Of a stretch of DNA of 64,000 nucleotides, positions 8,225-30,289 are shown piece after piece. Each line of letters opens with the position of its first letter. The first letter of the stretch is position 1. Source of the DNA: Algoriphagus iocasae (GTDB lineage Bacteria > Bacteroidota > Bacteroidia > Cytophagales > Cyclobacteriaceae). Location of the stretch: assembly GCF_014206875.1 (NCBI RefSeq), contig NZ_JACIJO010000003.1:474066-538065 (forward strand), in the 5' to 3' direction. A model generated the notes under the pieces. That model saw nothing but the letters and a program-made list of their open reading frames with translations. It was not told where the DNA came from and ran no database searches. Made by a program: the position numbers and the translations under genes.

Positions 8225-9307
8225 ATGCCTTCTCTTAAAAACATTCGTTTCGAATATGTAAAAAGAAATTTGGTTTTTCGCTTTGATGCAGGGACTTCCA
8301 GAGGAGTTTTGAAAACTAAAACAGTGTATTGGATCAAAGCTTTTGAAACCCAAAATGATTCGATAATTGGTTGGGGAGAAGCTGCTCCACTGGTGAAACT
8401 AAGCCCAGATGATAGGCCTGATTTCGAACAAGTGTTGGAAGAGATGCTTTCAAAACTGGAAATGGAAACCTGGGAAATAGAAGAGAATTCCATTTTAGAT
8501 AAGGTTTCCGATTTGATACCATTTCAGTTGCCAAGCATTCGTTTTGGGGTTGAAACAGCTTTATTGGACCTGTTAAATGGTGGAAAGAAAAAGATTGTTC
8601 AAAATGACTTTTACGATCTGAAAAGATCCATTCCCATCAATGGCTTGATCTGGATGGGGGATGAGGGGTTTATGAAAGAACAGATTGATCAAAAGCTGGA
8701 AGAAGGTTTTGATTGTATTAAAATGAAAATCGGGGCAATTGATTTTCGAAAAGAACTTGATTTGCTTGCCTACATCCGATCCAATTATCCTCCTTCCAAA
8801 ATCACCTTAAGAGTCGATGCAAATGGCGCATTTACTCTGGCAGAGGCTTTGAGTAAATTGAAAGCATTAGATGAATTTTCTCTTCATAGCATTGAACAGC
8901 CAATTTCTGCCGGTCAAAATCATGAAATGAGAAAACTTTGTGAGACCAGTCCTTTGCCAATTGCTTTGGATGAAGAGTTGATTGGGATTGAAAGAAAAGG
9001 AGACCTACTGGATGGGATCATGCCTCCATTCATTATTTTGAAACCAAGTCTTCTTGGTGGAATTAAAGAGACAAGAGAATGGATTGCTGAAGCTGAAAAA
9101 CGATCCATTGGATGGTGGATGACATCAGCTTTGGAGAGCAATATTGGTTTAAATGCCATCAGCCAACTGACAAGTCAATATAGCCCTGAAATGCCACAGG
9201 GCTTAGGTACTGGCAAGCTTTTTCACAATAATCTAGAATCTCCACTTGTTGTGGAAAAAGGGAATATTCTTTACAAATCTGGAATTGATTGGGAAGAACC
9301 GTCTTAG
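8225..9307 (+). CDS. menC: o-Succinylbenzoate synthase (enolase superfamily)
   Basis: I place the start at the ATG at 8225 (MPSLKNIRF), because the 23 residues encoded upstream from a TTG are not family-like. The product has 360 residues. It has the enolase-superfamily capping domain and barrel with every expected active-site block: KMK (acid/base lysine), LRVDANGAF (Asp), SIEQPI (Glu), IALDEEL (Asp) and LKPSLLGG (second Lys). The enzyme dehydrates SHCHC to o-succinylbenzoate in menaquinone synthesis. Close relatives are dipeptide epimerases and N-succinyl amino acid racemases. The LKPSLLGG block and the length favour MenC. The other men genes are not in the window. Confidence 0.85.
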   Translation: MPSLKNIRFEYVKRNLVFRFDAGTSRGVLKTKTVYWIKAFETQNDSIIGWGEAAPLVKLSPDDRPDFEQVLEEMLSKLEMETWEIEENSILDKVSDLIPFQLPSIRFGVETALLDLLNGGKKKIVQNDFYDLKRSIPINGLIWMGDEGFMKEQIDQKLEEGFDCIKMKIGAIDFRKELDLLAYIRSNYPPSKITLRVDANGAFTLAEALSKLKALDEFSLHSIEQPISAGQNHEMRKLCETSPLPIALDEELIGIERKGDLLDGIMPPFIILKPSLLGGIKETREWIAEAEKRSIGWWMTSALESNIGLNAISQLTSQYSPEMPQGLGTGKLFHNNLESPLVVEKGNILYKSGIDWEEPS

Positions 9308-10443
9308 TTTGGAAGCTGAAATAAATAGACAGGTTTATTTAATTCCACTTTCCAATCTGTCAAAGTTAAGGTTCCGTCTTCTGGATTTCGTTCGAAAACT
9401 ACGATGTCATTACTGGCTTGATGAGCTGCCAATAAATACTTTCCGTCTTTGGTTAAATTGAAATTTCTAGGCATCAATCCCCCTGAACTAATATTCTGGA
9501 TTCTTGAATAATCGCCATTTTCACCTTTTTTGAAAACTGAAATCGTGTTGGCATCACCTCTATTGGAGACATAAACATTTTCATCATTTTCAGATAGCCT
9601 AACTTCAGCCGCTCCAACAGCCCCATTAAAACCTTCATCCAAAAGGGAAAGTCTTTGTTTGAGGCTCAGTGAATCATTTTTGAAATCATAAATTTCCAAC
9701 ATAGCTGACATCTCCTGAACCAAGAATACGGTATTTCCATCTTTTGAAAATTTCAAATGACGCGGACCATCTCCGGGAGTCAAAGCCAATTCTGATTTCA
9801 ATTCCAAAGGCTCTTCGTTTTCTGAGTTGATGGCATAATTATAAATTTTATCCGTACCTAAATCTGCCACCAAAAGACGATTTCCCTCAGGGTTAAAAAC
9901 CGTGCTATGTACATGTGGGCTTTCCTGTCTCTCTGGATTTACACTATTTCCGGTATGCTGAATGGTCTGCTTGTGAATTAGTTTTCCATCAGGCTGAATT
10001 TCAAAAATACTCAGGCTTCCTCCGGTATAATTTCCAGCTGTTATCAATTTCTCATCAGGCGAAAGTCCCAAATAACATGGATGGTCGCCATAAGAAGTAA
10101 CTTTATCTAATAGTTGTAGGGAGTTAGTCTCCTTATTTAAATTAAAGCTTAGCAAGTCACCACCTTTGACGCCCGCAGATTCTTCGAGAGCATAAACTCT
10201 TTTGCCATCATTTCCAGCTAGAACAAAGGAGGGATTTTGGACATCGGGTGATAACAAATTGACTTCCAATAGGTTTTTAGAAGGATTGAAATGCAAGATG
10301 TTGATTCCTTGACCTGGTGAATCTGTGTACGTTCCAACAAGGAATGTGTACTCACCGCTTTCTTGGCTCATAGTAGTTGTTGTAGGGTTTTTGCAGGAAA
10401 TGCTGAGGAGCAGGACAAGTGCAAATGCGACGATTGATTTCAT
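9304..10443 (-). CDS. Lactonase-family (6-phosphogluconolactonase-like) seven-bladed propeller lipoprotein
   Basis: This encodes 379 residues. The N-terminus MKSIVAFALVLLLSISC is a lipoprotein signal with Cys17, so the protein is exported and membrane-anchored. The mature part follows the lactonase/YbhE propeller family: FLVGTYTDSPGQGI at the start, ESPHVHSTVFNPEG with the conserved histidines, DLGTDKIYNY, TPGDGPRHLKFS, and VSNRGDANTISVF near the end. Cytoplasmic members hydrolyse 6-phosphogluconolactone. A lipid-anchored version more likely acts on another lactone or binds a ligand. Its stop codon overlaps that of the convergent menC by 4 bases. Family certain, reaction inferred. Confidence 0.88.
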   Translation of the reverse strand: MKSIVAFALVLLLSISCKNPTTTTMSQESGEYTFLVGTYTDSPGQGINILHFNPSKNLLEVNLLSPDVQNPSFVLAGNDGKRVYALEESAGVKGGDLLSFNLNKETNSLQLLDKVTSYGDHPCYLGLSPDEKLITAGNYTGGSLSIFEIQPDGKLIHKQTIQHTGNSVNPERQESPHVHSTVFNPEGNRLLVADLGTDKIYNYAINSENEEPLELKSELALTPGDGPRHLKFSKDGNTVFLVQEMSAMLEIYDFKNDSLSLKQRLSLLDEGFNGAVGAAEVRLSENDENVYVSNRGDANTISVFKKGENGDYSRIQNISSGGLMPRNFNLTKDGKYLLAAHQASNDIVVFERNPEDGTLTLTDWKVELNKPVYLFQLPN

Positions 10444-10614
10444 ATTGGAAAGATAGAAAAATAATGAAATGCTTCTAATTTCTTTAAATATCGAAAACTT
10501 CTTATTTACCTGTTAAAAATTAAATGAATTGGGTTTTTTATTAATGATTAGGTAAATAATTGGGTAAAACATAGAATTTTAATTAATTTAGAAGGCTTAT
10601 TAAACCAGACCCTG

Positions 10615-13149
10615 ATGTATAAAACCTATGACACCGAAGTCGCGAAGCGATTTACGATTTACAACAGTTTATTTTTAGATCTACCATTTGACGATATCTA
10701 TCGGACCGGTACACTTCTTCCTATTTTGGGTACTGCCTGTCAAAAAGGATTTCAATCCGGCTTGACTCCAAAAGGAATCATTCAAGGATTTTTTAAGGAG
10801 ATGATGTCGGGAAATACCACGGAGGAGCAGAACAACCTCTTGTTTAAAATGATCCAGTATGTGGAAAGACAAGTGGTTTTGTTTGATTCTATCGAAGATG
10901 CAGCCTATGAGAAAATCAATGACTTGAATGGGAAAGGATCCATCAAGGCATTGATCAATAGGGCAGATAACGATCATAAAAGGGAAGCTTTAATAGAAAA
11001 ACTGAAGAACTTTTCAGTCAGATTGACCCTAACAGCTCACCCAACTCAATTTTACCCGGGTAGTGTTTTGGGTATCATCACTGACCTAGAAAATGCAATC
11101 AGATCTGACGATATCGGACAGATTAATCAATTATTAAAACAGCTCGGAAAAACAGGTTTTATCAACCGTGAAAAACCTAGTCCTTACGAGGAAGCAGTGA
11201 GTTTGATTTGGTATTTGGAAAACGTCTTTTATCAGACAATTCCGGATATCATGTTCAGATTGCTTTCCACCTTAGAAATCCCACTTCATAGCTGGGAAAA
11301 TCCAGGTTTATTGAAAATTGGTTTTTGGCCTGGAGGAGATAGAGATGGAAATCCATTTGTGACACACGAGACTACTGTTAAGGTAGCAGAGAGGCTTCAG
11401 AAATGGATCTTAAGATGTTATTATAGAGATTTAAGGAAGCTTAAAAGAAGATTGACATTTAAGCATGTCGAGGATAAAGTTCTTAAAATTGAGCGCTCTA
11501 TTTTCTCAACTCTTTTTGAGGATAAAGCAATTTATACCTCCAAAGATCAATTATTGGATGATTTGTTTGAGGTAAGAGGGTCTTTGATCGAGCATCACAA
11601 AGGAATGTTTTTGGATCTTCTGGATCAGTTTATCCTTAAAGTAAAAATCTTCGGATTCCATTTTGCCCATATGGATGCAAGACAGGATAGTAGAAAGCAT
11701 GATAGCTTGTGGGATGAGGCATTCGAGATCGAAGGAATCAAGTGGAAGGAAACTGAAGATGCACAGATTGAACAGATCATGAATCTCAGCCAACTTCCTG
11801 ATTTGGGTAAATTCAAGGATGATTTTCACAAGGAAATGCTTCAGACTTTTGGAGTGATTAGGGAAGTTCAGAATTCAAATGGAGAAGAAGCCCTTCATAG
11901 ATATATCATTTCCAATTGTCAATCCAGAAAGCATTTACTTGAAGTATATAAGCTGGCAAAATTGACTGTCGGTAAAGAAGAAGAGAAATTGCCATTGGAT
12001 ATTGTTCCATTGTTTGAAACAATCGACGATTTGGCTGAAGCTCCTGAAATCATGGCAAGCTTATATCATATGCCGGAATATAGAAACCATCTGGCTAGCC
12101 GTGGAAATAAGCAAACCATTATGTTAGGTTTCTCAGATGGTACCAAAGACGGTGGTTACCTTCAGGCCAACTGGTCTATTTTGAGAGCAAAAGAGGAATT
12201 GACGCGTGTATCCAGAGAGAATGATATTCAAGTCGTCTTTTTTGACGGTAGAGGAGGGCCTCCAGCAAGAGGAGGAGGAAATATGCATAACTTCTATGCA
12301 TCTCTAGGTGAAAAAGTTGAGAATTCTGAAATCCAGGTAACAATCCAAGGACAGACGATTTCTGCCAACTATGGAAAGATAGCTTCTTGTACTTATAACT
12401 TTGAACAGCTTCTAAGTGCTGGTTTGGAAAACCATCTGTACTCTGATTCTGAGAATAACCTGAATGAAAAGCAACGGGCACTTATTGAGGAACTTGCCGG
12501 AGAAGCATACGAATCTTATAAAGAGTTTAAAAGCCATCCGAAATTCGTTCCGTATTTGGAGCATGTCACTCCTTTGAAATATTTTGGAATGACGAATATC
12601 GGTTCCAGACCATTGAAAAGAGGAAAAGGTGGAGGTCTTAAATTTGAAGATTTGAGAGCGATCCCTTTTGTGGGAAGCTGGGCTCAGATGAAACAAAATA
12701 TCCCTGGATTTTATGGAGTTGGTACTGCCATCGAAAAATTGAAGCAGGAGGGTAGAATCGGAGAAGTTCAGGAGCTTTATAAAAACAGCTTATTCTTCAG
12801 AACGCTCCTCGGCAATTCAATGCAATCCTTAAATAAATGTTTTTATCCAGCAACGTCCTATTTGAAGGATGATAAATCGTATGGACAGTTTTGGGAAATT
12901 ATGTTTAAGGAGTACAATAAATCCATTGAGAAACTGAAAGAAGTTGCAGAAATGGATGAGTTGATGGGAGATAATCAGGTTAGCAAAAGATCAATTGCAA
13001 TCCGTGAAAAAATCGTACTTCCTTTGATAACAATCCAGCAATATGCAATTCAGACCATGTTGGAAACTGGAGAGAATTCAGAGCTACTTCAAAAGCTGAT
13101 TTTGCGAAGTATGTTTGGAATAATAAACGCAGCTAGAAACGCTGCCTAA
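10615..13149 (+). CDS. ppc: Phosphoenolpyruvate carboxylase
   Basis: This encodes 844 residues, slightly shorter than the 883 of E. coli. The enzyme carboxylates PEP with bicarbonate to oxaloacetate, replenishing the TCA cycle. Conserved catalytic elements are present: LTAHPTQ with His142, the FWPGGDRDGNP phosphate/bicarbonate loop, HFAHMDARQDS, GFSDGTKDGGY, the FDGRGG-PPARGGG glycine loop, and GSRPLKRG near the C-terminus with the PFVGSWAQ segment. It is cytoplasmic, a tetramer in known members. It is transcribed alone, after a 170-base leader, and is closed by a strong terminator at 13161-13189. It functionally complements gltA at 33.4 kb. Confidence 0.98.
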   Translation: MYKTYDTEVAKRFTIYNSLFLDLPFDDIYRTGTLLPILGTACQKGFQSGLTPKGIIQGFFKEMMSGNTTEEQNNLLFKMIQYVERQVVLFDSIEDAAYEKINDLNGKGSIKALINRADNDHKREALIEKLKNFSVRLTLTAHPTQFYPGSVLGIITDLENAIRSDDIGQINQLLKQLGKTGFINREKPSPYEEAVSLIWYLENVFYQTIPDIMFRLLSTLEIPLHSWENPGLLKIGFWPGGDRDGNPFVTHETTVKVAERLQKWILRCYYRDLRKLKRRLTFKHVEDKVLKIERSIFSTLFEDKAIYTSKDQLLDDLFEVRGSLIEHHKGMFLDLLDQFILKVKIFGFHFAHMDARQDSRKHDSLWDEAFEIEGIKWKETEDAQIEQIMNLSQLPDLGKFKDDFHKEMLQTFGVIREVQNSNGEEALHRYIISNCQSRKHLLEVYKLAKLTVGKEEEKLPLDIVPLFETIDDLAEAPEIMASLYHMPEYRNHLASRGNKQTIMLGFSDGTKDGGYLQANWSILRAKEELTRVSRENDIQVVFFDGRGGPPARGGGNMHNFYASLGEKVENSEIQVTIQGQTISANYGKIASCTYNFEQLLSAGLENHLYSDSENNLNEKQRALIEELAGEAYESYKEFKSHPKFVPYLEHVTPLKYFGMTNIGSRPLKRGKGGGLKFEDLRAIPFVGSWAQMKQNIPGFYGVGTAIEKLKQEGRIGEVQELYKNSLFFRTLLGNSMQSLNKCFYPATSYLKDDKSYGQFWEIMFKEYNKSIEKLKEVAEMDELMGDNQVSKRSIAIREKIVLPLITIQQYAIQTMLETGENSELLQKLILRSMFGIINAARNAA

Positions 13150-13160
13150 ATAACAAAAAA

Positions 13161-13189
13161 AAGCCCCGACTCAGTCGGGGTTTTTTTTT
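13161..13189. terminator. Strong terminator between ppc and the convergent lipoprotein gene
   Basis: The arms CCCCGAC and GTCGGGG flank a 3-base loop (TCA). There is an A-run on the left and nine Ts on the right, so it can work in both directions. It lies 11 bases after the ppc stop. Confidence 0.92.
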
Positions 13190-13197
13190 GACTTTTC

Positions 13198-13839
13198 TTA
13201 TTTACCGGAAATTAATCCGTCTTTGATCAACTGTGTAACTACTAATTCAGAGAAAGTCTTTGAAAACGTTTCTACTGAGCTTGGATTGGTAGTTTCTGAT
13301 TGAGAAGACCAAACCAACTCTTCAGAATTGGCATCGTATAAGTTGATTTCCAGGTAATATTTCTTGTCTGTTGCATAATATCCCGGATCATACATCACTG
13401 GATTATAATAGGAATAGTATCCATAGAATCTGCCGTAATAACCTCCATAAGCCATAGGAGAATACATGGTAGTTCCAGGTACATATCTGGTTTCAGAGGT
13501 TTGATCCAATAAAGCCACTGTCAAAATCGCATCACTTCCACCTTCTCTGATAGCTTGAAGGGTAGCGTCTTTGTTTTGTTCTGTGGCTTTGAAGCCAGGA
13601 GGAATGATGTCAAAGCTACTAGTCGCTACGATACCTCTACTTTTTAGCTGGGTATCGATGTCATTTTCGATTGTTTGTCTTGCTACAAGATTGTCTGATA
13701 TACCTGTTACAAAAATGCTATTGTAAGGCTCTGAAGGGGTGTTTGGCCCAGTCCACGAACCAAGAATTTTTGTGCTTGGCGAGCATGCAGCTGCTAACAC
13801 CAAAATCAAAAGTGTAAATAATAAATTAATTTTTTTCAT
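13198..13839 (-). CDS. Exported lipoprotein, DUF4136-like
   Basis: I choose the ATG at 13839 (MKKINLLFTLLILVLAAAC), which yields a standard lipoprotein signal with Cys19. The longer frame to 13875 overlaps the upstream gene. The product has 213 residues. The mature region has the alternating pattern of DUF4136-type domains: an early strand block, IENDIDTQLKSRG helix, GSDAILTVALLDQ, a Gly/Tyr-rich insert (YGGYYGRFYGYYSYYNP) and a closing YLEINLYDANSEELVWSS with a C-terminal helix. It is the last gene of a five-gene minus-strand run starting at 17343. The partner role with the barrels upstream is inferred; biochemical function unknown. Confidence 0.75.
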   Translation of the reverse strand: MKKINLLFTLLILVLAAACSPSTKILGSWTGPNTPSEPYNSIFVTGISDNLVARQTIENDIDTQLKSRGIVATSSFDIIPPGFKATEQNKDATLQAIREGGSDAILTVALLDQTSETRYVPGTTMYSPMAYGGYYGRFYGYYSYYNPVMYDPGYYATDKKYYLEINLYDANSEELVWSSQSETTNPSSVETFSKTFSELVVTQLIKDGLISGK

Positions 13840-13861
13840 GATTAGTAAAGGGTTGAAATAG

Positions 13862-14404
13862 TTAGTTTTGATCAATATTGTTAAATAGTTCTTCTACTGC
13901 AAATTTTATAGCCTCAGCTTTCTTCTCTTCTTTTTTAGGTACGACTCTATCAATAGATCCTACCCAAACGGCTTCATTGTTTTTTGAATCCACGAGATGT
14001 AAAGTCACACTTCCTTCTTTGTAAGTGTTTACTGGGACTTCTTGACTCTGCCAGGTATAATTTCTCTGACCGGTATACATAAAGGGATCCGTCGCAAGAC
14101 TTGTCGTTCTGGTTTGTACTTTTTCTTCTACTACTAGTCCCAGATTTATTTTTAAGTCTGGATTTTCAGATTTACTCAGACCTCTTGCTTCCATTCCTTC
14201 AGCAACTTCCTGCTTCAATAAATCGATGGCTTTTTCAAATTCTGGATTTGATGGATTTGTGTTTTCTATATCCATAAAACCAAAGCTTTTATAGGCTGTC
14301 AAATCGAAATTTTTATACGAATCATCTTCAACGGTGACCAAAGAAGATGTACAGGCAAAACATAAAAAGACAACCAAAATGGCAAGCGTTCTACTGTTTT
14401 TCAT
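13862..14404 (-). CDS. DUF4136 domain lipoprotein
   Basis: This encodes 180 residues. The signal MKNSRTLAILVVFLCFAC gives an acylated Cys18. The domain order is characteristic of DUF4136: YKNFDLTAYKSFGFMD at the start, a helix ending in MEARGLSKSENPDLKINLGL, a basic and Thr-rich strand, then GSVTLHLVDSKNNEAVWVGSIDRVV and a final helix of KKEEKKAEAIKFAVEELF type. It is probably tethered to the outer membrane facing the periplasm. It sits 22 bases before the related lipoprotein gene and 60 bases after the barrel gene, all on one strand. The molecular role of this widespread family is not established. Confidence 0.85.
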   Translation of the reverse strand: MKNSRTLAILVVFLCFACTSSLVTVEDDSYKNFDLTAYKSFGFMDIENTNPSNPEFEKAIDLLKQEVAEGMEARGLSKSENPDLKINLGLVVEEKVQTRTTSLATDPFMYTGQRNYTWQSQEVPVNTYKEGSVTLHLVDSKNNEAVWVGSIDRVVPKKEEKKAEAIKFAVEELFNNIDQN

Positions 14405-14464
14405 TTCAATTCAGTTTTTTGATTAGATATTTAAAATAATGTTTTTTAATCAATTAGTAATCAC

Positions 14465-15604
14465 TTATCGGAGCCAGTTACTTCCAAAAATGATATAATA
14501 TCCCCAATCATCTGGACCAAATGCCACATCCATCCCCATTCTCAAGCCGAATTTACGGGCAATTAAATACCTGTATCCAGTGCCAATGTTATATGCAAGA
14601 TCTGATTCTCCAAAATCATCAAATCCATTAAAAGCTTTTGCTAGGCCTCCAAAAGCCATAATGCTCCACCGGCTACTAATGTCAATTCTGTTTTCCAATT
14701 CTGTTAAGGCAGTTTGTAAGCCTTGATACCGTGCAGCTGGCACACCTCTCAGATTGATCCCAGGCAATAAATAAAATGGGGGAGAATTAAATACTTGTTG
14801 GTATTCCGCTCTTAATCCCAAAATCCAATTTTTGCTAACTGGCCAATAGGAATAGTTAGCAATATTTAATCTGGAATAATTGTAATCACTTCCAGTCCAG
14901 TTTTGACTGATTGTATATGAAAAATCAACTTTGGTACCCTTATTAGGAGTGAAGACATTGTCTCTGCTATCATATTGAATAACAGGTCCAATCATGGAAA
15001 TATGAGAATTGATTTCCTTTGCCGGTACAAAATAAGGTAGTTCTCCATTGTAGCCAACACGGTTCCAAAGAAACGTATAATTAAAACCTGCTCTCCATTT
15101 ACTATCCCCAAGTTGCTTGGTCCCTTCAAAAAACACCGGAAGCATTTTAAAATTGAATTTGAATTCCTGTTCTCCGACAACTGGTATTTCCCGATAGAGA
15201 GAAATATTCACATTTGCATAGACTGTTCCATAACGATATTTGATTCCTTTTTCAGGAATGTTCTTGGTATGGATGCCTCCAATAAACCAGGTTTTGTTTG
15301 CTGTGTAGCCAGCTAGAACGGTTGTAATATTTGGCGGACTTCCTGGAACTGGGTTTAAGAATGCTAATCCCAAAGCACCTCCAAAGCCACCAAGAGCAGG
15401 TTCGGTAATCAGTAATGGAATTGGTACAAACCCATTAGCGTCAATGATCCAATCACTTAAATCAAATTTACCATCCTCTTCATCCCTAAATGAGGGTTCG
15501 GCTTTCTTCTGAGAAAAAGTTGTAAAAGAAATACAATAAAAAAAGCCTGTTAGGACTATGGAGATCCATAATCTTAACAGGCTTATATGATAGGAAATCC
15601 TCAC
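14465..15604 (-). CDS. Omp85-superfamily (BamA/TamA-like) outer-membrane barrel without POTRA domains
   Basis: This encodes 379 residues. A long hydrophobic N-terminus ending around TTFSQ is a signal peptide. The remainder is just sufficient for a 16-strand barrel, with no room for periplasmic POTRA repeats. The family signature is the loop-6 motif LRGVPAARYQG followed by E-N-R-I-D-I, equivalent to the conserved R-G-[FY] of BamA/D15 proteins. The last residue region (YYIIFGSNWLR) is a terminal amphipathic strand. It lies 4 bases from the small barrel gene upstream and before the DUF4136 gene, so co-expression is likely. It may translocate or assemble a substrate; no substrate is known. Confidence 0.82.
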   Translation of the reverse strand: MRISYHISLLRLWISIVLTGFFYCISFTTFSQKKAEPSFRDEEDGKFDLSDWIIDANGFVPIPLLITEPALGGFGGALGLAFLNPVPGSPPNITTVLAGYTANKTWFIGGIHTKNIPEKGIKYRYGTVYANVNISLYREIPVVGEQEFKFNFKMLPVFFEGTKQLGDSKWRAGFNYTFLWNRVGYNGELPYFVPAKEINSHISMIGPVIQYDSRDNVFTPNKGTKVDFSYTISQNWTGSDYNYSRLNIANYSYWPVSKNWILGLRAEYQQVFNSPPFYLLPGINLRGVPAARYQGLQTALTELENRIDISSRWSIMAFGGLAKAFNGFDDFGESDLAYNIGTGYRYLIARKFGLRMGMDVAFGPDDWGYYIIFGSNWLR

Positions 15605-15608
15605 TTGT

Positions 15609-16199
15609 CTAGTTGATGAAAACTATACCAAAATTGAAGTTAAGATTTGATTGACCATCAAGGTCACCGCTCTTAAATCCTGTCAAATATTTTGCGCCAA
15701 CTCTAAAAGCCATATTCGCGTTTGGCTGAATCAATGCTCCGATTTCAGGTTTAATTGCAAATTGCCAGTGAGTTTTATCAGAGGTATAAATTCCCATGTC
15801 AATTTTTCTTTGGCTTGCCATTGTTCCAACCCCCAAACCTGCATATGGTCTAAATACTCCAGTTCTCAAAGCATAATAATTGGCTGTAGCCAATATTGGA
15901 TAACTGTATTGGTATCTATATTGAATACCTGATAGAGATGCTGTTCCTTCTGTATAAACCTTTTCTTCTTCTCTCTTATATAGAGTGGTATGACCAGCTT
16001 CAATCCCTACTGCTGTGTGTGGATTGATGAATTTTTGATATTCGAAAACAAAGCCTCTTCCTGATACTTGATCTATGAAATCGGATGTGTTACCCAAAGG
16101 TACTGTAACCGCATAGTTGAAAGAGAAAAGTGAGTTCTGTGCTTTTGAAACAGCTGAAAGAGATACAATCAGCAGAAGCGTTACTAATATATTTTTCAT
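15609..16199 (-). CDS. Small outer-membrane beta-barrel protein
   Basis: This encodes 196 residues. The N-terminus MKNILVTLLLIVSLSAVSKA-Q is a signal peptide cleaved after Ala. The rest is a chain of amphipathic strands (FEYQKFINPHTAVGIEAGHT, YRYQYSYPILATANYY, PYAGLGVGTMAS, WQFAIKPEIGALI, AFRVGAKYL) ending in an aromatic-terminated strand (FNFGIVFIN), matching the 8-stranded OMP_b-brl/OmpW-like fold. It lies 3 bases before the DUF4136-type lipoprotein stop and 4 bases after the Omp85-like gene, so it belongs to the same operon. Function unknown. Confidence 0.8.
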   Translation of the reverse strand: MKNILVTLLLIVSLSAVSKAQNSLFSFNYAVTVPLGNTSDFIDQVSGRGFVFEYQKFINPHTAVGIEAGHTTLYKREEEKVYTEGTASLSGIQYRYQYSYPILATANYYALRTGVFRPYAGLGVGTMASQRKIDMGIYTSDKTHWQFAIKPEIGALIQPNANMAFRVGAKYLTGFKSGDLDGQSNLNFNFGIVFIN

Positions 16200-16202
16200 G
16201 AC

Positions 16203-16850
16203 TTATTTAGCTAGGTATGGTGACTGTTCGAAAGCTTGGTTAATGCTTTCATTGACACGACTATTGATACTGTTTGCGGATCCTTCTAGAAGACCATTTA
16301 CCACTCCAGTCCAAACCACAGGGATTTTATCTGCATCACCTTGGGTTTCTAAAGTTGTCATTTGCATCATCAAGGTACCTGTTCTGACACGGTTTACTTG
16401 CGGAGGATAATAGCCTGGATACCACCAGCCCCATCCTGGTCCCCATCCTGGATAAAACCAGTTCCAATACCACCAGTCGTAATAGAAAAACAGTTGATCT
16501 GTTTGAGAAACAGATGGTAAAATGATCAAATCCGGATTGGAGTTTTCTGAAACCTCTGTAAATCCGGCAGCATCCATATTACTCTTAATAGAAGCTAAAA
16601 TAGCAGCTGCGTAAACTGGATCTAAATACTCTGGCTCATCACCCGGATTCCCATCGATAAACTGATCGGTGATTTTAATGACTTTGCTTGGAAGGGCATA
16701 TGTGCCAGCTGAGCCAAAATCAAAACTTGCATCATAGTTTGTATAAACTATATCTAGCTCATCCACATATTCTGCACCATCTGGTTTACAGGATATGGCA
16801 GAAAATAGTAATGTAGAGAAAATTAGGAGTTGGTAAAGTTTTTTGTTCAT
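16203..16850 (-). CDS. DUF4136 domain lipoprotein with aromatic-rich insert
   Basis: This encodes 215 residues. The signal MNKKLYQLLIFSTLLFSAISC gives Cys21. The domain follows the DUF4136 order: DIVYTNYDASFDFGSAGTYALP, a helix IKSNMDAAGFTEVSENSNPDLIILP, then a striking Trp/Tyr/Gly/Pro-rich stretch of roughly 30 residues (residues about 121-150), then TGTLMMQMTTL and a C-terminal helix. The aromatic insert resembles the Tyr-rich insert in the lipoprotein at 13198, which suggests that the two are diverged copies. It is probably at the inner face of the outer membrane. It is second in the operon, 13 bases after the helical periplasmic protein gene. Confidence 0.82.
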   Translation of the reverse strand: MNKKLYQLLIFSTLLFSAISCKPDGAEYVDELDIVYTNYDASFDFGSAGTYALPSKVIKITDQFIDGNPGDEPEYLDPVYAAAILASIKSNMDAAGFTEVSENSNPDLIILPSVSQTDQLFFYYDWWYWNWFYPGWGPGWGWWYPGYYPPQVNRVRTGTLMMQMTTLETQGDADKIPVVWTGVVNGLLEGSANSINSRVNESINQAFEQSPYLAK

Positions 16851-16863
16851 ATGATTAATTTAT

Positions 16864-17343
16864 TTAAATCTCTTCCCCAATAAACGGAAGTTCTTGCTGC
16901 ATTAAATTTCTGATAGTATTGTGGATGTAGGTATCCACTTGCAGAAATTTGGCTGCGTCTAAAGCAGAACTCACTTTTTTGAATTTTTTGTAATATCTAG
17001 CATGCAGATTGGCTAGCTTTTGATCATTCTTGATTGTTCTTTTAGCCAAATCATCTGCCTCTGCTTCGCCGATTGATTCAAACTCATTTAAATAATCGTT
17101 GATGATTTTCATTCGCTCTCTAGAAAGCTCCTTTCTTGCATCTTCGTATTCTTGGTAAACAGTCCAAAATCCCTGAGCTACTGATTCAGGCAAATCCATG
17201 TAGGCATCTACTAGCATTTTTTTGTCTTTTCCGAATTCAGCCTGAATAAGCGTGATTTCGTCATCGACGGACATAGTTTGGGCGTTGGCCTTAATAGAGA
17301 TGAAAGCTATACTTAAGGATAAAAACAAAATCCACTTTTTCAT
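16864..17343 (-). CDS. Helical periplasmic protein, Spy/CpxP-like in general character
   Basis: This encodes 159 residues. A signal peptide MKKWILFLSLSIAFISIKANA-Q is clear. The mature part is nearly all helix with many charged residues and repeated aromatic/leucine positions (YQEYEDARKELSRERMKIINDYLNEF, LHARYYKKFKKVSSAL). This resembles periplasmic helical chaperone-like proteins of the Spy/CpxP type, although no LTxxQ motif is seen. It heads the minus-strand run to 13198, with a consensus -7 box about 36 bases upstream. A chaperone or scaffold role for the operon's barrel proteins would fit but is speculative. Confidence 0.7.
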   Translation of the reverse strand: MKKWILFLSLSIAFISIKANAQTMSVDDEITLIQAEFGKDKKMLVDAYMDLPESVAQGFWTVYQEYEDARKELSRERMKIINDYLNEFESIGEAEADDLAKRTIKNDQKLANLHARYYKKFKKVSSALDAAKFLQVDTYIHNTIRNLMQQELPFIGEEI

Positions 17344-17378
17344 AACCTAATAATTTAAAAGTCTCACTTATTAAATAT

Positions 17379-17386
17379 CAAAAATA
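17379..17386 (-). promoter_or_regulatory. -7 box of the lipoprotein/barrel operon
   Basis: On the minus strand this reads TATTTTTG, an exact TAnnTTTG match, about 36 bases before the ATG at 17343. No TTG is found at normal -33 spacing. Confidence 0.45.
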
Positions 17387-17468
17387 ATAGCTTTGTGCTT
17401 TTCTGTTTAATTATTACTCAATATTATTCAAGAGCTAGTGAGAAATGATGGTTACATCCGAAATTTCC

Positions 17469-18668
17469 TTAAAAAGACTCATTTACGTTCAGGTAAAAGC
17501 CTGAGTTCCCTTTTCTTCCAAATCCGTAATCAGCGGAGATAGTAGTTCTGTTTTCTTTATTAATCATCACCCTTAACCCAACTCCATAAGCAGCATTGAT
17601 TTTTTCAAAAAGCCTTTCATCCGTCAATTTGCTTCCATAAGATGAGCTGTTGAAAAATAAGGTGCCTCCAAAAGTTTCTTTATTCTTTTGGAGTGGGAAT
17701 CGATATTCAACCTCAGAATAAACCATGGATTCACCTCTGAATCTACCTTGAGCATATCCTCGTCCGGATCTGCCAAACATATCATATCCTATAGAAGGCA
17801 AACTCATATAAGGCAGATCTCCTGACACTAGAAAATTAGCCAATCCCCAAACTCCGATTAAATGTCTTTTTCTTTTTTCACTTAAATTAAAATAATGTCT
17901 GTAATCCAACAAAAGGGTGGAGGAAGACTTATCAGAACCTAAAAAGGAAGGATTTATTTTATATGATAAAAGGGCGAAATTTTTCTCGTAAGGAGAGACT
18001 GCAACATCTCTGTTTTCCATCACTCCATTAATAGTTATACCTGAAAGAGTATACTTATCAAGGTCAAAGCCAAATTGCTGGTTGTAGTAATCGTGGGAGA
18101 AATTTAACTCAGATGGAGAATTTTCATCTTCTAAAAAGTTTTCAATTTTCGAAAAAACATCCAAATGGTAACCCATTCCTAAGTAAAACTTTGAAGTTCC
18201 TATTCTTTTCAAAACTGTTTCGTAGAATCTTACCCATGAAAAATCCATTTGCTGCTCACCCCATAAAACACCTAATTGATTGGGATTTTCTGATGGCATG
18301 TTAGGAGTCGAGCTGCCTAATCCAAATGTCGGTTGGGAGGTGATGAAATACCTCCAATCACCCACCAGAATCCATTTATCCTCAGAAAGGAAAATATTGG
18401 ATCTGGAACTGAATATCCATTGTTTCTTTGTGGTATAAAGAAAGTTGCCAACCAAATTGGATAAATGTGTCGTTTCAGGAGTTCCCATTCTCCACGTAGC
18501 GGAAGGAGCAAGTCCGAAAAGCCATCCATTGGCAGGATTTGATCCAATGGCAGGAAGTGGCACAAGTTTAAATTCCCGTATTTGGTTTGGTTTATATTGA
18601 ATACTGTCCTGAGCTAGTAACTGGCCTATGAATAGGAAAAAGGTTAAGAATGTCAGGAGTTTTTTCAT
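17469..18668 (-). CDS. Second POTRA-less Omp85-superfamily barrel
   Basis: This encodes 399 residues with signal MKKLLTFLTFFLFIGQLLA-Q. The protein is all beta barrel. The loop-6 region reads GRSGRGYAQGRFRGESM followed by EVEYRFPL, which matches the R-G-x-x-x-G-R-x-x-G and E-x-R pattern of BamA/D15-type barrels. The C-terminal strand ends in Phe (GFYLNVNESF), as expected for Bam-dependent insertion. POTRA domains are absent. Its start codon overlaps the stop of the porin gene, so the two are translationally coupled. It is not closely similar to the barrel at 14465 outside the signature. Substrate unknown. Confidence 0.82.
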   Translation of the reverse strand: MKKLLTFLTFFLFIGQLLAQDSIQYKPNQIREFKLVPLPAIGSNPANGWLFGLAPSATWRMGTPETTHLSNLVGNFLYTTKKQWIFSSRSNIFLSEDKWILVGDWRYFITSQPTFGLGSSTPNMPSENPNQLGVLWGEQQMDFSWVRFYETVLKRIGTSKFYLGMGYHLDVFSKIENFLEDENSPSELNFSHDYYNQQFGFDLDKYTLSGITINGVMENRDVAVSPYEKNFALLSYKINPSFLGSDKSSSTLLLDYRHYFNLSEKRKRHLIGVWGLANFLVSGDLPYMSLPSIGYDMFGRSGRGYAQGRFRGESMVYSEVEYRFPLQKNKETFGGTLFFNSSSYGSKLTDERLFEKINAAYGVGLRVMINKENRTTISADYGFGRKGNSGFYLNVNESF

Positions 18669-19909
18669 TAGAAAGATACGTCGTATTGAAGCCTAAATCT
18701 CAATTCATCGCTTTGAGGTAATGATTGATCCTCAAAAGTAAATTTGGTCAATTCTGTCGTTAATTTATTCTTATGTCCCGCAAAAAACCAGTTAAATCCT
18801 AATGCAACCTCTTTTTGTCTATTTTGCGAAATGGATAAGTCTGGTCTTATCTCAGCTATTCGAACAGCAATTTCTAAAGGTTTTGGCCAAAAGTTTAAAA
18901 CTTGATAAGGGAAATACCCTGCGGTAAAATAAAAGCCTCCTAAAGTAGTGCTTCCTCCGTCTTCAAAATTGTCAACAATATTTTTTCTATGGAATTCACT
19001 GGCCCAAGAGAATCCTTTGTAAACAAAAGCTGTTTCTAAATTATACTGTTTTACAGAATACTGTCCATCATTCGTCCCTTCAAAACCACTTAAGTTCCCA
19101 CCTCCAGAAGAGGAAAATCTGGTATAAGGGCTGGTATTTGTGATGCCTGCTAATGCTATTAAAGCGGCAGGTTTTTGAGAAATATTAACGTCGCCTCCGG
19201 AAAATGGAACTTCACGACCCAATGGATTCCATTGGAACCTACCGAAATACATCATTTTAGAGTCATCATTGACTCGGGTACCTCTGCCAGTTCCAGTAAA
19301 TACACCCAACCAATAATTAAAGTTTGCCGCACCACCTCCATTAAGATTTCCATACACAGAAATACCTTGCTGTCTATCCACTGTAAATGTTCTATTCAAT
19401 AGTGACCGGTCTACCAATTGTTGCTCCCCACTACTTATGAAACGTTCTCTGGTATATTCCACTTTCCATTGCCCTGCCTTAAATTTCAACCAAGGCCATT
19501 TTTCTACCATAATTCTGAAATCCAGTAAAATGCTCTGGCCTAATTCATATTCAAAATAATATTTGAACCAAGGTTGGTAGGCATGACCACCAATTTTCAG
19601 TCTAGCTCTGTTTATCTTAAAAAGTTTGACATCCTGATTTTTGAAGTCATTAAATGAAATAGGATCCTGATCATCTGGTACCGCAAATCTAAATTGAAAT
19701 CTACTAGCAAACTGAAGTTCAAATTTTTCGTCAGCAGTAGTAAAAACAAACCCTTTTGAGGTATGTGTAAAAGGTTTTTCTTTAACAACTGGGGCTAAGG
19801 AAGTTGTGTCTTTTTCCTGTGCAAAAGCATTTTGGTATAGACTTGGGAATAGTAAACTGACAGTTAAGAATGAGAAATAAAGAAGGTCTTTCTTCCAGGA
19901 AAACTTCAT
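18668..19909 (-). CDS. Phosphate-selective porin O/P-type outer-membrane porin
   Basis: This encodes 413 residues. After a signal peptide (LFPSLYQNAFA-Q) comes the conserved OprO/OprP-like order: GFVFTTADEKFELQFASRFQFRF, RARLKIGGHAYQPWFKYYFEYEL, FKAGQWKVEYTRERFISSGEQQLVDRSLL and DRQQGISVYG, and a terminal strand ending in Phe. These features define a 16-strand trimeric porin for anions or small solutes. The named phosphate selectivity is not demonstrable from sequence. It is the first gene of a two-gene unit with the Omp85-like barrel, overlapping it by 1 base. Confidence 0.88.
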   Translation of the reverse strand: MKFSWKKDLLYFSFLTVSLLFPSLYQNAFAQEKDTTSLAPVVKEKPFTHTSKGFVFTTADEKFELQFASRFQFRFAVPDDQDPISFNDFKNQDVKLFKINRARLKIGGHAYQPWFKYYFEYELGQSILLDFRIMVEKWPWLKFKAGQWKVEYTRERFISSGEQQLVDRSLLNRTFTVDRQQGISVYGNLNGGGAANFNYWLGVFTGTGRGTRVNDDSKMMYFGRFQWNPLGREVPFSGGDVNISQKPAALIALAGITNTSPYTRFSSSGGGNLSGFEGTNDGQYSVKQYNLETAFVYKGFSWASEFHRKNIVDNFEDGGSTTLGGFYFTAGYFPYQVLNFWPKPLEIAVRIAEIRPDLSISQNRQKEVALGFNWFFAGHKNKLTTELTKFTFEDQSLPQSDELRFRLQYDVSF

Positions 19910-19947
19910 CGGAATGGCTTTGTAGATTTTCAGAGGGCAAAGAACGC

Positions 19948-19989
19948 AAAAAGCACCGAGAATAATTAGAATTTTCCCGATGCTTTTTT
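19948..19989 (-). terminator. Terminator of the small barrel gene at 20008
   Basis: The arms AAAAAGCA-CCGAG and CCCGATGCTTTTT (one internal mismatch) are separated by 15 bases. The T-run is on the minus strand. It lies about 20 bases beyond the stop codon at 20008 and separates that gene from the porin unit. Confidence 0.7.
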
Positions 19990-20007
19990 ATAAATATTTC
20001 TGGATTA

Positions 20008-20670
20008 TTACTTAGATGCTTGAGGCAATCTGAAAACTAGGCCTCCTTCCAATCCAAACTGGTAAAGACTACTGTAGCTGGAAAGTCCGCCTCCTAATCC
20101 ACCTGTACCAAAATATAATCCTCCTCCTATAACCTGAGTTGCAGAGAATAAAGTGGCCTGTGCCCGAAATGCAATGTTATCTGTCAACCAAAAGTTTGAC
20201 CCGCCTCGGATGTTATAAGAAAATTTTGTTGCTGAGTTCTCATTTCCGTTATCTGGATTAGCTACGCTGAAAATCCCCATTCCAAATCCAGCCCCTACAA
20301 ATGGCTCTACGACTTCATTCACTGGAAAATATCGGGTGCCATTCAGCATTACCCAGTTTATAGCCATATCAAAATTTGTGTTTTGCAAAGCTCCACCGAG
20401 AAATCCTCCATCCTGATAGATTGTAGGTGCATTGGTATCTTGTCTCAAATATTGAATTTCTATAGCCCCTCTATTAGGAATGTGGTATTCTATACCTGCC
20501 CCCCATCTTAAGCCGTCTTGAATTTGACCTTCAAAATAGGAAGTGCTAGAATAGTAGGAATCAACTTTATCTTTGAATATATACCCAGCATAGGTATTGA
20601 TTCTTAATTCTTGTGACATGGCAATCCCTGACACAAGAAGCAATGCGAAAAGAGGGAGAAGTTTTTTCAT
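20008..20670 (-). CDS. Outer-membrane beta-barrel protein
   Basis: This encodes 220 residues. The signal is MKKLLPLFALLLVSGIAMS-Q. Typical small-barrel strands follow: RINTYAGYIF, GLRWGAGIEYHI, AIEIQYLRQD, MAINWVMLNGTRYF, VEPFVGAGFGMGIFSV, FSYNIRGGSNFWLTDNIAFRAQATL and a last strand YQFGLEGGLVFRL. This is the outer-membrane beta-barrel (OMP_b-brl) fold with the F-V-G-A-G-x-G central motif. It is a monocistronic gene with its own terminator at 19948-19989. It is similar in size to, but not an obvious duplicate of, the barrel at 15609. Confidence 0.82.
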   Translation of the reverse strand: MKKLLPLFALLLVSGIAMSQELRINTYAGYIFKDKVDSYYSSTSYFEGQIQDGLRWGAGIEYHIPNRGAIEIQYLRQDTNAPTIYQDGGFLGGALQNTNFDMAINWVMLNGTRYFPVNEVVEPFVGAGFGMGIFSVANPDNGNENSATKFSYNIRGGSNFWLTDNIAFRAQATLFSATQVIGGGLYFGTGGLGGGLSSYSSLYQFGLEGGLVFRLPQASK

Positions 20671-20697
20671 TGTATTTCAGTTGTTTAAAATTTAAAT

Positions 20698-22230
20698 CTA
20701 ATTGAATTTTTTAAAATTAAAGGAATATCCTATCAGCAATCCAATATTGGAATACTTGGCTTTGGTAATCACCAAGGCACCCTCTAAAGGTGTGCTGACA
20801 TTGGTTTCGTTAAAGCTGTTATCCTGGTAAAATTGATCGGTGTTTCCAAAACTATAGACCAAACCTAGGGTAAGACTACTTCTTTGTTTTTCTATGATAG
20901 CTCCAAAAGAAATATGATAGATGTCCCATTGGGTTATTTCTGTTACCAATTGGTTTGAATAAATTAAGTCCGGATTGTAGTAAGAAAAATCTGTTCTGAA
21001 ACTCCCCAGCAGAGATAGGTTTTCCTTCAATTTGTTTTCGTATCCCAAAGCAAAATTTGTCACTGACTTCATGGACGATTCCACATTTAAAAATTGATCA
21101 CTTCCTATTCCTAATTCATCACCACCTGGCCTGATAAAGGAACCTGGTTCAGCATTGATTATATTATAGGGATCAATTCCTGCGAAATAACTGACATTTA
21201 AACTAAGCTGAGACTGGTTGAAACTTTTGTGGATCCCTGCAGCTATTTCGAGTGGAGATTTGAATTTTGCTTTCAATTTTTCCTGCCTATCCGATGCATA
21301 AGCAGATGCTCTTGTATCAGATCCTGGTAATTTAAGGTTGGTTAAAGTGAGGTCTTCGGCTACTGTACCTGTTCCTAAAATTGGAATCCCAGGACTTGTT
21401 ACCGTAAATCCATAGCCCAAACTTCCTTTTTGGTAATTGATTCCTGCTTTCAAAGCAGTTCTCACTGCAAAGTAATTGACATATTCATTCTGCACTCTGG
21501 AAAGCAAAATGTAATCGTCAGAATTGGTAAGGGTTTTTGAATTGAAGCGGTAATTGAAATTGACAGATCGAAGAGTATTTAATAAGCTGATTCCAAAACC
21601 AAGGTTTTTACCTATTTTTTTTCCTAAACCCAATGTTACCATTGTTTCTTGGACCTGGGAGTTCAATCCAGATTCTGCAACTAACTCTTCTGGGCCAGGA
21701 CTTTCACTTTCTTCTACCAAATCAAAATAGTCATTGATTCGTGCAATTCCGCTAAACTTAAAGCTAACCGGAGTGAGAAGTCCGTAGCTAATATTCCAAT
21801 TGGATTTGCTTTTGATCGACCCACTGATCAATAAGGGTACCGTGTTGAATTGGAGACCCTTAAAATCTGCTCTTTGTCCAAGTGCATTTTCAATTTTAAT
21901 ATTTTCCAATCCATAAAGATTGGCATTGATTGATAGGGTAGTGGTATCTAAAAAGGCTAGATTTCCAGGATTATAATAAACTCCAGCATTGTCTATAGTA
22001 TCAGTCAAAACTGCACCGCCAAGTAAAGCCGCTCTTGTACCAAATTGATTATTCCAATGATGTGTGTCTTGTGCATAAGAATCTGTACAAGCAAAAAATA
22101 TGATGACAATAAGCCCAAGATGAATTCTAGAAAAATAATCCCTCAAGAGTAGAAGATCGAGTAGTTGACAATGCTTTCTCCTCGAAAAATGTAATCGGAA
22201 ACCAGTGACTTTCAATAATCCTAAATCCAT
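20698..22230 (-). CDS. FadL/OmpP1-like outer-membrane transport protein
   Basis: This frame has 510 codons from the ATG at 22230, but the signal peptide (IHLGLIVIIFFACTDSYA-Q) begins about 36 residues in. The true start may therefore be a TTG near 22129, which would give RDYFSRIHLG as the basic n-region. The mature N-terminus HHWNNQFGTRAALLGGAVLTDTIDNAGVYYNPGNLAFLD is the classic FadL/PorV-type hatch with its N-P-G/A-x-L motif. About fourteen amphipathic strands follow, ending IGLLIGYSFNFKKFN. FadL proteins take up hydrophobic compounds. The Bacteroidota relatives also include T9SS-linked PorV, which is shorter. It follows ompA-type and unknown genes on the same strand. Confidence 0.75.
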   Translation of the reverse strand: MDLGLLKVTGFRLHFSRRKHCQLLDLLLLRDYFSRIHLGLIVIIFFACTDSYAQDTHHWNNQFGTRAALLGGAVLTDTIDNAGVYYNPGNLAFLDTTTLSINANLYGLENIKIENALGQRADFKGLQFNTVPLLISGSIKSKSNWNISYGLLTPVSFKFSGIARINDYFDLVEESESPGPEELVAESGLNSQVQETMVTLGLGKKIGKNLGFGISLLNTLRSVNFNYRFNSKTLTNSDDYILLSRVQNEYVNYFAVRTALKAGINYQKGSLGYGFTVTSPGIPILGTGTVAEDLTLTNLKLPGSDTRASAYASDRQEKLKAKFKSPLEIAAGIHKSFNQSQLSLNVSYFAGIDPYNIINAEPGSFIRPGGDELGIGSDQFLNVESSMKSVTNFALGYENKLKENLSLLGSFRTDFSYYNPDLIYSNQLVTEITQWDIYHISFGAIIEKQRSSLTLGLVYSFGNTDQFYQDNSFNETNVSTPLEGALVITKAKYSNIGLLIGYSFNFKKFN

Positions 22231-22339
22231 TCCAAAATAGTTTTCTAATGAACAACTCTATAGCCAGACCTGTCCTTTTGTTTATTCTTGAAAAATAAAA
22301 TATACCACAGGCAATTATCAAAATCACCTGTGGCTGAAT

Positions 22340-24652: not shown

Positions 24653-24656
24653 GTCC

Positions 24657-25820
24657 TTACTTTTTATTTCCGAAACCTAACCACAATTTAAACTCTGCAC
24701 TGACCCCTATAAAAGGTTGGAAGCTATTCACATTATTACCAGAAAGTTTTTCTGTTGTAATAAATGTACCGCCGGCATTTAGTCGGATAACCCTGAAAAA
24801 GTTATAGCCTAGTCCTACATAAACAGGTCTTTCGATCACAGGTCCTGAGATTCGTTCATTCAGGCTGTTTTCCATTTTACCGGAAATGAAAGCTCCTGCA
24901 GAAATGGACATGTTATTCATGAACCTTGCAAAAGTTCTATTTCCTAAAGGAAATGAAACGCCTACATATGGACCATGTACAAACTCCTGATTTGGCAATC
25001 CTTCACTTAATGATATTCCTCCATAACCAATATTGATAGGGAGAGCATTTGAAGTTTTTTCTGTGGGATAATTATCAAAAATCTTTTCATCCACTCTCAC
25101 GAGCATATTTGGACTTAAATATTGGCTGATTTCAGAGGAAATGATCGCATTGAGTTCTTCTAAGTATTGTGCGGCGTAAACAGCTCTTGCATTGTCATTT
25201 TCTCCAACTCCGGTAGCGTTATATTTGGCTTTACCCATTTTCAGCTTTTCTCGCTGCTCTAATTTGGATTGGGTGATATCGCTGAATCCCGGGAATTGCT
25301 CGCCATTTGGAAGTTCAAAATAGTAGGCTCCTTGTTCTACTATTTTTTTCATATTGTTCAGGATGACGATGTCGGATTCTGAAAAATGTATACCTCCTTT
25401 TTTGATGCTCGTAATTGTGCTGAGGTAGGTTTTGATGTTTTGACTGATCAGTGCCCGAACTTCTTCAATCTGCTCGGAACCAGCTCTCTGATAAAAGCCG
25501 ATTTCCAAATAATAATCCTCATTTGATCTTAAAGGATCAGAAACCAGTACTTGGTAAGAAATGTCCTTGTATCCAAAAGGAGACTTCCAGAAATAGGAGT
25601 ATCCAGCCTTCTCAGTTTTTTTGGAGGGATATATCTTGAGAGTCACCATTTCTATCTTTTCGGGAATTGCCCCGCGGATGTAGAAAGCCTGTTCGGCAGG
25701 GAGTGGTTTTCCTCCATTGATTTTGTTTTGGAGCAAATCCAGGTCAACGGTGGTAACTTGTCCCAAGAGGCTGAGTGTAGATAGAAATACACCCAAAATA
25801 GTTAGTACAAATCTGTTCAT
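24657..25820 (-). CDS. Exported protein of unknown function with barrel-like C-terminus
   Basis: I choose the ATG at 25820 (MNRFVLTILGVFLSTLSLLG-Q), three codons inside the longest frame, giving a good signal peptide. The product has 387 residues. The N-terminal 150 residues look like a beta-sandwich with RGAIPEKIEMVTLKIYPSKK and a Y-F-W-K motif. A helical middle follows (YAAQYLEELNAIISSEISQYL). The last 130 residues show paired strands of outer-membrane barrel type (IGYGGISLSEGLPNQEF, YVGVSFPL, YVGLGYNFFRVIRLNAGGTF, FIGVSAEFKLWLGFG). It is co-directional with the OmpA-family gene, with 4 bases between them, so it is probably a partner in cell-envelope architecture. No named family recognised. 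Confidence 0.72.
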   Translation of the reverse strand: MNRFVLTILGVFLSTLSLLGQVTTVDLDLLQNKINGGKPLPAEQAFYIRGAIPEKIEMVTLKIYPSKKTEKAGYSYFWKSPFGYKDISYQVLVSDPLRSNEDYYLEIGFYQRAGSEQIEEVRALISQNIKTYLSTITSIKKGGIHFSESDIVILNNMKKIVEQGAYYFELPNGEQFPGFSDITQSKLEQREKLKMGKAKYNATGVGENDNARAVYAAQYLEELNAIISSEISQYLSPNMLVRVDEKIFDNYPTEKTSNALPINIGYGGISLSEGLPNQEFVHGPYVGVSFPLGNRTFARFMNNMSISAGAFISGKMENSLNERISGPVIERPVYVGLGYNFFRVIRLNAGGTFITTEKLSGNNVNSFQPFIGVSAEFKLWLGFGNKK

Positions 25821-30270: not shown

Positions 30271-30289
30271 AATGGGAGAATAAATCGGA

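Follow-up and report, generated by a model that had tools for sequence, protein, structure and literature searches.

What does a DUF4136 lipoprotein work with at the outer membrane, and which of the genes around it belong to the same device? The question is raised by a gene cluster of Algoriphagus iocasae that we analysed in a window of 64,000 nt, i.e. the whole stretch of DNA under study (assembly GCF_014206875.1, contig NZ_JACIJO010000003.1, positions 474,066 to 538,065 of the forward strand). According to the list of open reading frames (ORFs) of the window, six ORFs, all on the minus strand, span positions 13198-17343. In the order of transcription we call them H, D1, SB, O85a, D2, and D3 (Table 1), and the gaps between them, in the same order, are 13, 3, 4, 60, and 22 bases. 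An earlier note on this DNA had spoken of one strand and short gaps, as found here; it announced five genes but listed six products, and it is the list that holds. By the curated Pfam cut-offs (32.8 bits for DUF4136, PF13590; 24 for Omp85, PF01103; 28.7 for OMP_b-brl), D1 and D2 are the two DUF4136 lipoproteins the note had described, the first with an aromatic insert, and SB and O85a are its small barrel and its Omp85 barrel. D3 indeed carries the Tyr-rich insert ascribed to it, but its DUF4136 score stays below the cut-off. The note then placed the lipoproteins around O85a as the core of a machine. The cluster is real, but the centre was wrongly chosen: the constant partner is SB, which the note passed over, and the constant Omp85 protein of the genus is O85b, encoded just outside 13198-17343.

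What stays constant is D1 with SB immediately after it. To search for this pair, we used one profile for each protein, built from seven pairs found beside H or O85a. The D1 profile matched 17 places in 15 of 218 genomes of the phylum Bacteroidota and 32 places in 30 of 395 genomes of the class; 13 of these places are common to both samples, leaving 36 distinct ones. SB lies directly downstream of D1 in all 36, with the G200 copy divided between two reading frames. In particular, the SB search of the same phylum genomes placed SB next to D1 in 16 cases out of 17, the remaining one being the split copy in G200 (L224), and all 19 further places seen only in the class sample, each of which was fetched, also had SB next. 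The same is seen starting from the barrel. Among the matches listed by the phylum and family SB searches, part of which were fetched, we had 149 SB loci, and in 143 of them a DUF4136 gene lies directly upstream on the same strand. A lipobox was recognised in 140 of these 143 adjacent pairs, the rest being dropped from the gap and aromatic counts, and the median gap between D1 and SB in the 140 pairs is 7 bases.

Most DUF4136 genes do not belong to the paired kind. SB was never the downstream gene among the 30 matches to the Pfam DUF4136 model that scored best in the phylum genomes, a set defined by top scores rather than drawn at random and leaving most remaining matches outside the count. Moreover, six named records of a plasmid collection match SB (Bacteroides finegoldii, Phocaeicola massiliensis, Parabacteroides distasonis, two of Persicobacter, and Aureibacter tunicatorum), and the D1 profile finds D1 upstream in all six; a search with a single D1 sequence recovered two of them. 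The four annotated records read "DUF4136 domain-containing protein" followed by "outer membrane beta-barrel protein", and the surroundings of the pair vary among them, with a BamA/TamA-family gene four places beyond D1-SB in Aureibacter. No NCBIfam family was found for seven relatives of D1, SB, and H.

Some SB copies are irregular in themselves. The SB copy of L129/L220 (G254:C25) has an internal stop and no D1, and that of L224 (G200:C17) is split over two frames behind an intact D1; both could reflect decay or assembly errors. One contig (G409:C41; L357, L358) carries several SB copies: a normal D1-SB pair, an SB with no DUF4136 gene near, and an SB followed by a DUF4136 gene, i.e. in reversed order. 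A natural D1-SB fusion, suggested by the ORF list for L120, was rejected, as the locus has two genes in different frames.

The paired lipoproteins also differ from other DUF4136 proteins in their aromatic insert, which in D1 separates two central strands (about residues 101-132 of the model). The richest 30 residues of paired D1 proteins contain a median of 16 Trp, Tyr, and Phe residues (range 10-20, n = 140), compared to 9 (7-14) in the 30 best-scoring unpaired DUF4136 proteins and 7 (up to 14) in 69 other unpaired ones; the count was taken over the full mature sequence of paired D1 but over the matched domain of the others, and the ranges overlap. By the same measure, D2 has 6 aromatic residues and D3 has 13, mostly Tyr with one Trp. 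Within the insert, conservation among 136 sequences is highest at Pro125 (130 sequences), Gly121 (121), Tyr124 (118), and Trp111 (117).

The closest solved structure to D1 is 4f54, the DUF4136 protein BT2437 of Bacteroides thetaiotaomicron, both by structure (Z 15.6 for the D1 model) and by profile (E 1e-28), and BT2437 carries a similar Trp-rich insert. The D1 model also matches PelC (5t10; Z 10.1, root-mean-square deviation 4.2, 126 residues aligned), a match outranked by 4l8n (Z 12.0 over model residues 13-287), which is a Parabacteroides distasonis protein with a PDZ domain. PelC was not in the structural matches listed for D2, which was folded only within a chain joined to O85a. The SB model resembles OmpA, NspA, and OmpW with Z of 17-19, and its top match is a Legionella porin (20.8). 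PelC is part of the Pel polysaccharide exporter of Pseudomonas, where it forms a ring of twelve under the 16-stranded barrel of PelB; the D-loop of PelC contacts the barrel, and assembly depends on Trp149 of PelC, which is inserted into the membrane (PMC12141448).

On balance, we think it probable that D1 and SB form an outer-membrane lipoprotein-barrel complex, as two halves of one device. D1 would be attached by its lipid to the inner leaflet of the outer membrane, and its Trp-rich loop would grip both the membrane and the rim of SB that faces the periplasm; judging by the order of structural elements rather than by alignment, this loop sits roughly where PelC has the loop touching its barrel. 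SB may be an OmpA-like barrel for which D1 provides the periplasmic part in trans, and the complex could serve as a stay or a sensor of the outer membrane. A barrel of eight strands offers no channel, and envelope upkeep is therefore the most likely role. This suggestion rests on few neighbours: a DegP-like protease directly follows D1-SB in L140, and resistance-nodulation-division (RND) pumps precede the SB2-H-D3 genes in L099 and L100, which is thin support. DUF4136 is a widespread family of lipoproteins, and the D1-SB pair provides this orphan family with a likely and testable partner. The almost invariant neighbour gene, the motif strongest in the paired subtype, and the link to PelC make the role of DUF4136 directly accessible to experiment. 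The pair occurs also in human gut commensals (Bacteroides, Parabacteroides, Phocaeicola), among otherwise differing genes. If the complex exists, it would be a small and simple addition to the known lipoprotein-barrel machines of the outer membrane.

To look for an interface, we folded D1 and SB with AlphaFold2 as one tethered chain, obtained by translating across the D1 stop codon. In the window the two genes share a reading frame, as they do in 30 further loci (31 of the 143 adjacent ones in all), and the alignment contained 26 tethered chains, 31 D1 rows, and 31 SB rows. The model had a predicted local distance difference test (pLDDT) score of 85.7 and a predicted template modelling score (pTM) of 0.69, compared to values of about 0.47 expected without a fixed orientation of the two domains and about 0.78 with one, according to our own template modelling arithmetic. 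This lends modest support to the complex.

Coevolution gave nothing firm for D1 and SB. Coupling tests used 136 of the 140 pairs, those within length limits. In direct coupling analysis the top D1-SB pairs of positions reached z of 8.2, while the best pair in eight full shuffles had 3.8-5.0. The eight top D1-SB pairs tested on the tree had little or no excess of shared changes (z from -0.5 to 1.6); top pairs within each protein also lacked such an excess, so this phylogeny-aware test has little power. When branches were permuted, 11 pairs between the insert and SB had z above 3.5, compared to 5.9 expected, a number reached in 10 of 300 nulls, and the mean z was below that of the nulls; we made no use of this weak excess.

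Besides the coevolution results, several observations weigh against the complex and its proposed role. The tethered chain is a stand-in for co-folding and was judged by pTM only, with no predicted aligned error or inter-domain error; moreover, the D1 insert, which would make the contact, is poorly modelled (pLDDT about 50-60). There is no DUF4136 gene near SB in L129, where SB is broken by a stop, nor in L157 and L316; the DUF4136 neighbour of SB is divergent in L285 and L287 (D2-like in the latter), and in L304 it lies directly downstream of SB. As the profiles were built from known pairs, distant unpaired D1 or SB proteins could have escaped them. Both genes are patchy, SB being present in 14 of 218 phylum genomes and 148 of 390 family genomes, and therefore the device is dispensable. 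Finally, the DegP-like neighbour is clear only in L140, with a weak match in L147.

A different possibility is that D1 and SB are co-transcribed because equal amounts of both are needed under the same envelope condition, and that they do not bind each other. Tight spacing alone can mean shared translation, coupling was not clear in the coevolution tests, and the stress-type neighbours just mentioned, i.e. the DegP-like protease and the RND pumps, fit such a scheme. Still, D1-SB stays together in different families and classes although the genes around it change, something unusual with co-regulation alone, and the pTM of the tethered chain is well above the value expected without an interface. 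We consider pure co-regulation possible but rather unlikely.

D1 could also be a dedicated assembly factor of SB, comparable to LptE for LptD, which helps the barrel to fold and then stays or leaves. The order of the genes is consistent with this, D1 being the first of the pair, as is the equality of lipoproteins and barrels in G299, a genome with three pairs (three of each). On the other hand, 8-stranded barrels normally fold without a factor of their own, and their lumen does not have the width for a lipoprotein plug, and so we regard an assembly factor as unlikely.

How do the Omp85 barrels relate to the D1-SB pair? We took 29 same-genus genomes with SB and asked what fills the slot between SB and D2. 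O85a is there in three of them (G000, G588, G599). Of 16 strong O85a matches, three have SB or a DUF4136 gene as the immediate same-strand neighbour, namely the window itself, a copy in G068 lying beside SB-D1, and one in G046 beside a D2-like gene. O85a is thus an optional insert between SB and D2. Its model has 16 strands and matches the BamA/TamA barrel with Z of 20.5-25.4 among the matches listed. A sequence search of solved structures had a best E of 0.43, and hence the fold assignment rests on the model. As the earlier note had it, O85a is a barrel devoid of POTRA: Pfam found no match to this domain in O85a or O85b, and fewer than 45 mature residues precede the O85a barrel in the AlphaFold2 model, which leaves no room for one.

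These data bear on the central proposal of the earlier note, a Bam-like machine of lipoproteins around O85a. The operon shared by the window, Algoriphagus aestuarii, and two further genomes of the genus, together with the neighbours of O85a in G068 and G046, would agree with it. However, 26 of the 29 genus genomes have the slot without O85a, the protein lacks POTRA, and a tethered O85a-D2 chain had a pTM of 0.65, compared to about 0.63 expected without an interface and 0.84 with one, i.e. no sign of a fixed orientation; with no paired rows beyond the query in its alignment, this is a weaker test than that of D1-SB. Scattering of the genes in other genomes, which the note had named as a check, is seen for O85a and is not seen for D1-SB. 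We rejected the O85a-centred machine as the core on gene order and consider it highly improbable. Relatives of O85a with 32-33% identity were seen in Sphingomonas contigs (L004, L005), and therefore Omp85 proteins of this type are not limited to Bacteroidota.

The other barrel, O85b, is more regular within the genus: in 24 of the 29 genomes it precedes SB on the same strand at a distance of at most 2 kb, the exceptions being G111, G540, G101, G584, and G106. This, and the fold of D1, raise the possibility of an export channel of the PelBC kind, in which a ring of DUF4136 proteins under the 16-stranded O85b (or O85a) guides a polymer or a lipid out, with SB as an accessory; H and an O85b-type barrel occur together in some other genera as well. 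Beyond the genus and a few other taxa the association fades. Omp85 genes were found inside the 1.5-kb flanks of only three of 45 SB loci (L114, L115, L135) and in the fetched stretches of only two of 19 class-wide D1 places. In addition, no tetratricopeptide repeat (TPR) or polysaccharide-synthase domain was found among the 20 window proteins scanned, and the O85a-D2 chain showed no confident orientation. We therefore judge an export channel improbable, though less so than a machine built around O85a.

In the genus, the operon beyond the D1-SB pair is conserved. It is indeed the envelope operon of repeated DUF4136-type lipoproteins and outer-membrane barrels that the earlier note had recognised. 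The block of ten genes is collinear in A. aestuarii (L001), the closest named relative found (87% identity of O85a), and the order H-D1-SB is kept in all 21 genus loci listed, which are the best-scoring SB copies. Hence the cluster is more than a chance arrangement. SB in these 21 loci is followed directly by D2 in 17, by O85a and then D2 in three, and by nothing further seen in one; D2 is succeeded by D3 in 17. Since O85a fills its slot in few genomes, the typical operon of the genus is O85b-H-D1-SB-D2-D3. In G225 (L206) the cluster adjoins an 844-residue ppc-like gene, as in the window, but lacks O85a, and G111 (L207), a lower-scoring SB copy of the genus, has no H within 18 kb.

Elsewhere the company of the pair changes. 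H is found inside the 1.5-kb flanks of eight of 45 SB loci (L114-L158), and H and Omp85 adjoin D1-SB mainly in the genus and a few other taxa; the link of H, D2, D3, and O85b with the pair holds for the genus and some other genera but not for most places. If the D1-SB complex exists, then in the genus it would work beside H, D2, D3, and O85b, with O85a added in few species. In a bolder form, which we hold to be doubtful, PelC-like lipoproteins bearing a Trp-rich belt would assemble at the periplasmic face of a closed 8-stranded barrel and tie or sense the outer membrane rather than take part in export, with D2 and D3 in the same ring; it would be the first of a new kind of complexes. As for H itself, 16 members have no Pfam family in common, the Spy/CpxP family (LTXXQ) was not among their Pfam matches at E 0.1, and sequence searches of solved structures had a best E of 0.65 for H and 0.54 for D3.

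Several loci carry other combinations of these genes. In L101 and L102 (G026, G064) the order is D1-SB-H-FGE-O85b, with an FGE-sulfatase-type protein between H and O85b; H and FGE are also adjacent in L097. In L099 and L100 (G021, G018) an RND pump, 65% identical to an ACR_tran protein, and a TolC-sized gene are followed by an SB2-type barrel, then H and D3. L217 (G076:C25) has D1-SB, then D3, then an SB2-type barrel 4 bases further on, and the last two are possibly a second lipoprotein-barrel pair.

Comparison with known systems agrees with the statement of the earlier note that no known machine has this set, inasmuch as we found no description of the operon in the literature searched. The PelBC exporter is similar in that PelC has the same fold as D1 and acts at a barrel of the outer membrane; the difference is that the constant partner here is an 8-stranded OmpA-like barrel, whereas PelB is a 16-stranded TPR barrel, and neither a PelB-type TPR barrel nor Pel synthesis genes were found among the 20 window proteins scanned. 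PqiC is also an outer-membrane lipoprotein of a related ring-forming fold. It forms an octameric ring, with PelC and LptE listed as structural relatives (PMC10897342), but its partner is an MCE tunnel and not a barrel. The BAM complex of F. johnsoniae (BamADGHMP) resembles the cluster as a Bacteroidota machine of barrels and lipoproteins; however, its BamA has POTRA domains and its BamG is FadL-like (PMC12611786), and the string "DUF" was absent from the main text of that paper. Neither O85a nor O85b is a POTRA-bearing barrel as in BAM, and the lipoproteins within the cluster are of the DUF4136 type rather than the BamD-type TPR one. O85a and O85b, in which no N-terminal domain was detected, resemble the noNterm Omp85 proteins (Heinz and Lithgow, 2014), although the available excerpt describes a class of proteins and not this operon (PMC4104836).

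Published work on the lipoproteins themselves is sparse in the literature searched. BT2437 appears there only as a gut immunoglobulin A target, in the excerpt of PMC6831775. A Chlorobaculum paper mentions DUF4136 proteins where it deals with the vesicle proteome (PMC12285230), and they also figure in a list of proteins from vesicles of Pseudomonas-infected macrophages (PMC12893005). The passages on DUF4136 that were consulted contained nothing on the D1-SB pair, and work outside the searched literature may exist; a Trp-rich lipoprotein combined with an 8-stranded barrel was not found in the literature either.

The features of the locus are collected in Table 1.

Table 1. Genes and putative transcription signals of the D1-SB locus and its surroundings (positions in the window).
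Feature	Position	Strand	Description
H	16864..17343	-	exported protein, no Pfam family above cut-off; taken to be helical in the earlier note
D1	16203..16850	-	DUF4136 lipoprotein, Pfam 101.3 bits; lipobox Cys21; Trp/Tyr-rich insert, mature residues about 101-132
SB	15609..16199	-	small 8-stranded outer-membrane barrel; Pfam OMP_b-brl 41.0 bits
O85a	14465..15604	-	POTRA-less 16-stranded Omp85 barrel; Pfam Omp85 26.1 bits
D2	13862..14404	-	DUF4136 lipoprotein without Trp-rich insert; Pfam 97.0 bits
D3	13198..13839	-	divergent DUF4136-like lipoprotein with Tyr-rich insert; Pfam 32.1 bits, E 1.8e-7, just under cut-off
O85b	17469..18668	-	second POTRA-less Omp85 barrel; Pfam 34.7 bits
OprP-type porin	18668..19909	-	Pfam Porin_O_P 51.9 bits; one-base overlap with O85b
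TATTTTTG	17379..17386	-	upstream of H; match to Bacteroidota -7 element; no -33 TTG at usual spacing
Two-way terminator	13160..13190 (about)	both	between D3 and ppc; strong, z -4.73
Terminator-like hairpin	19910-20007		long, with U tail, z -3.2; between SB2 barrel and OprP-type porin

O85b, on the same strand, ends 125 bases before the start of H, and hence the gene run starts beyond 17343. It is bounded by the terminator-like hairpin on one side and the two-way terminator on the other, and the OprP-type porin is probably the first gene of the transcript in the window. H to D3 could also be transcribed as a separate unit, because a match to the Bacteroidota -7 element precedes H. The start of D3 is most likely the ATG at 13839 rather than the upstream TTG at 13875, because the lipobox follows that ATG. 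No Rfam match was found within window positions 9000-26500. The terminator-like hairpin was absent from the pattern scan, probably owing to its 11-base loop.

Other genes of the window were noted in passing. An OmpA-domain protein with a DUF6089-like start is encoded at 22340-24652, next to a 390-residue frame at 24657-25829 for which no Pfam family was found at E 0.01. Separate from the cluster, positions 27850-30300 encode an 816-residue Omp85 protein with a POTRA domain (Pfam 71.9 and 36.5 bits), which adjoins genes for coproporphyrinogen oxidase and a PAP2 phosphatase.

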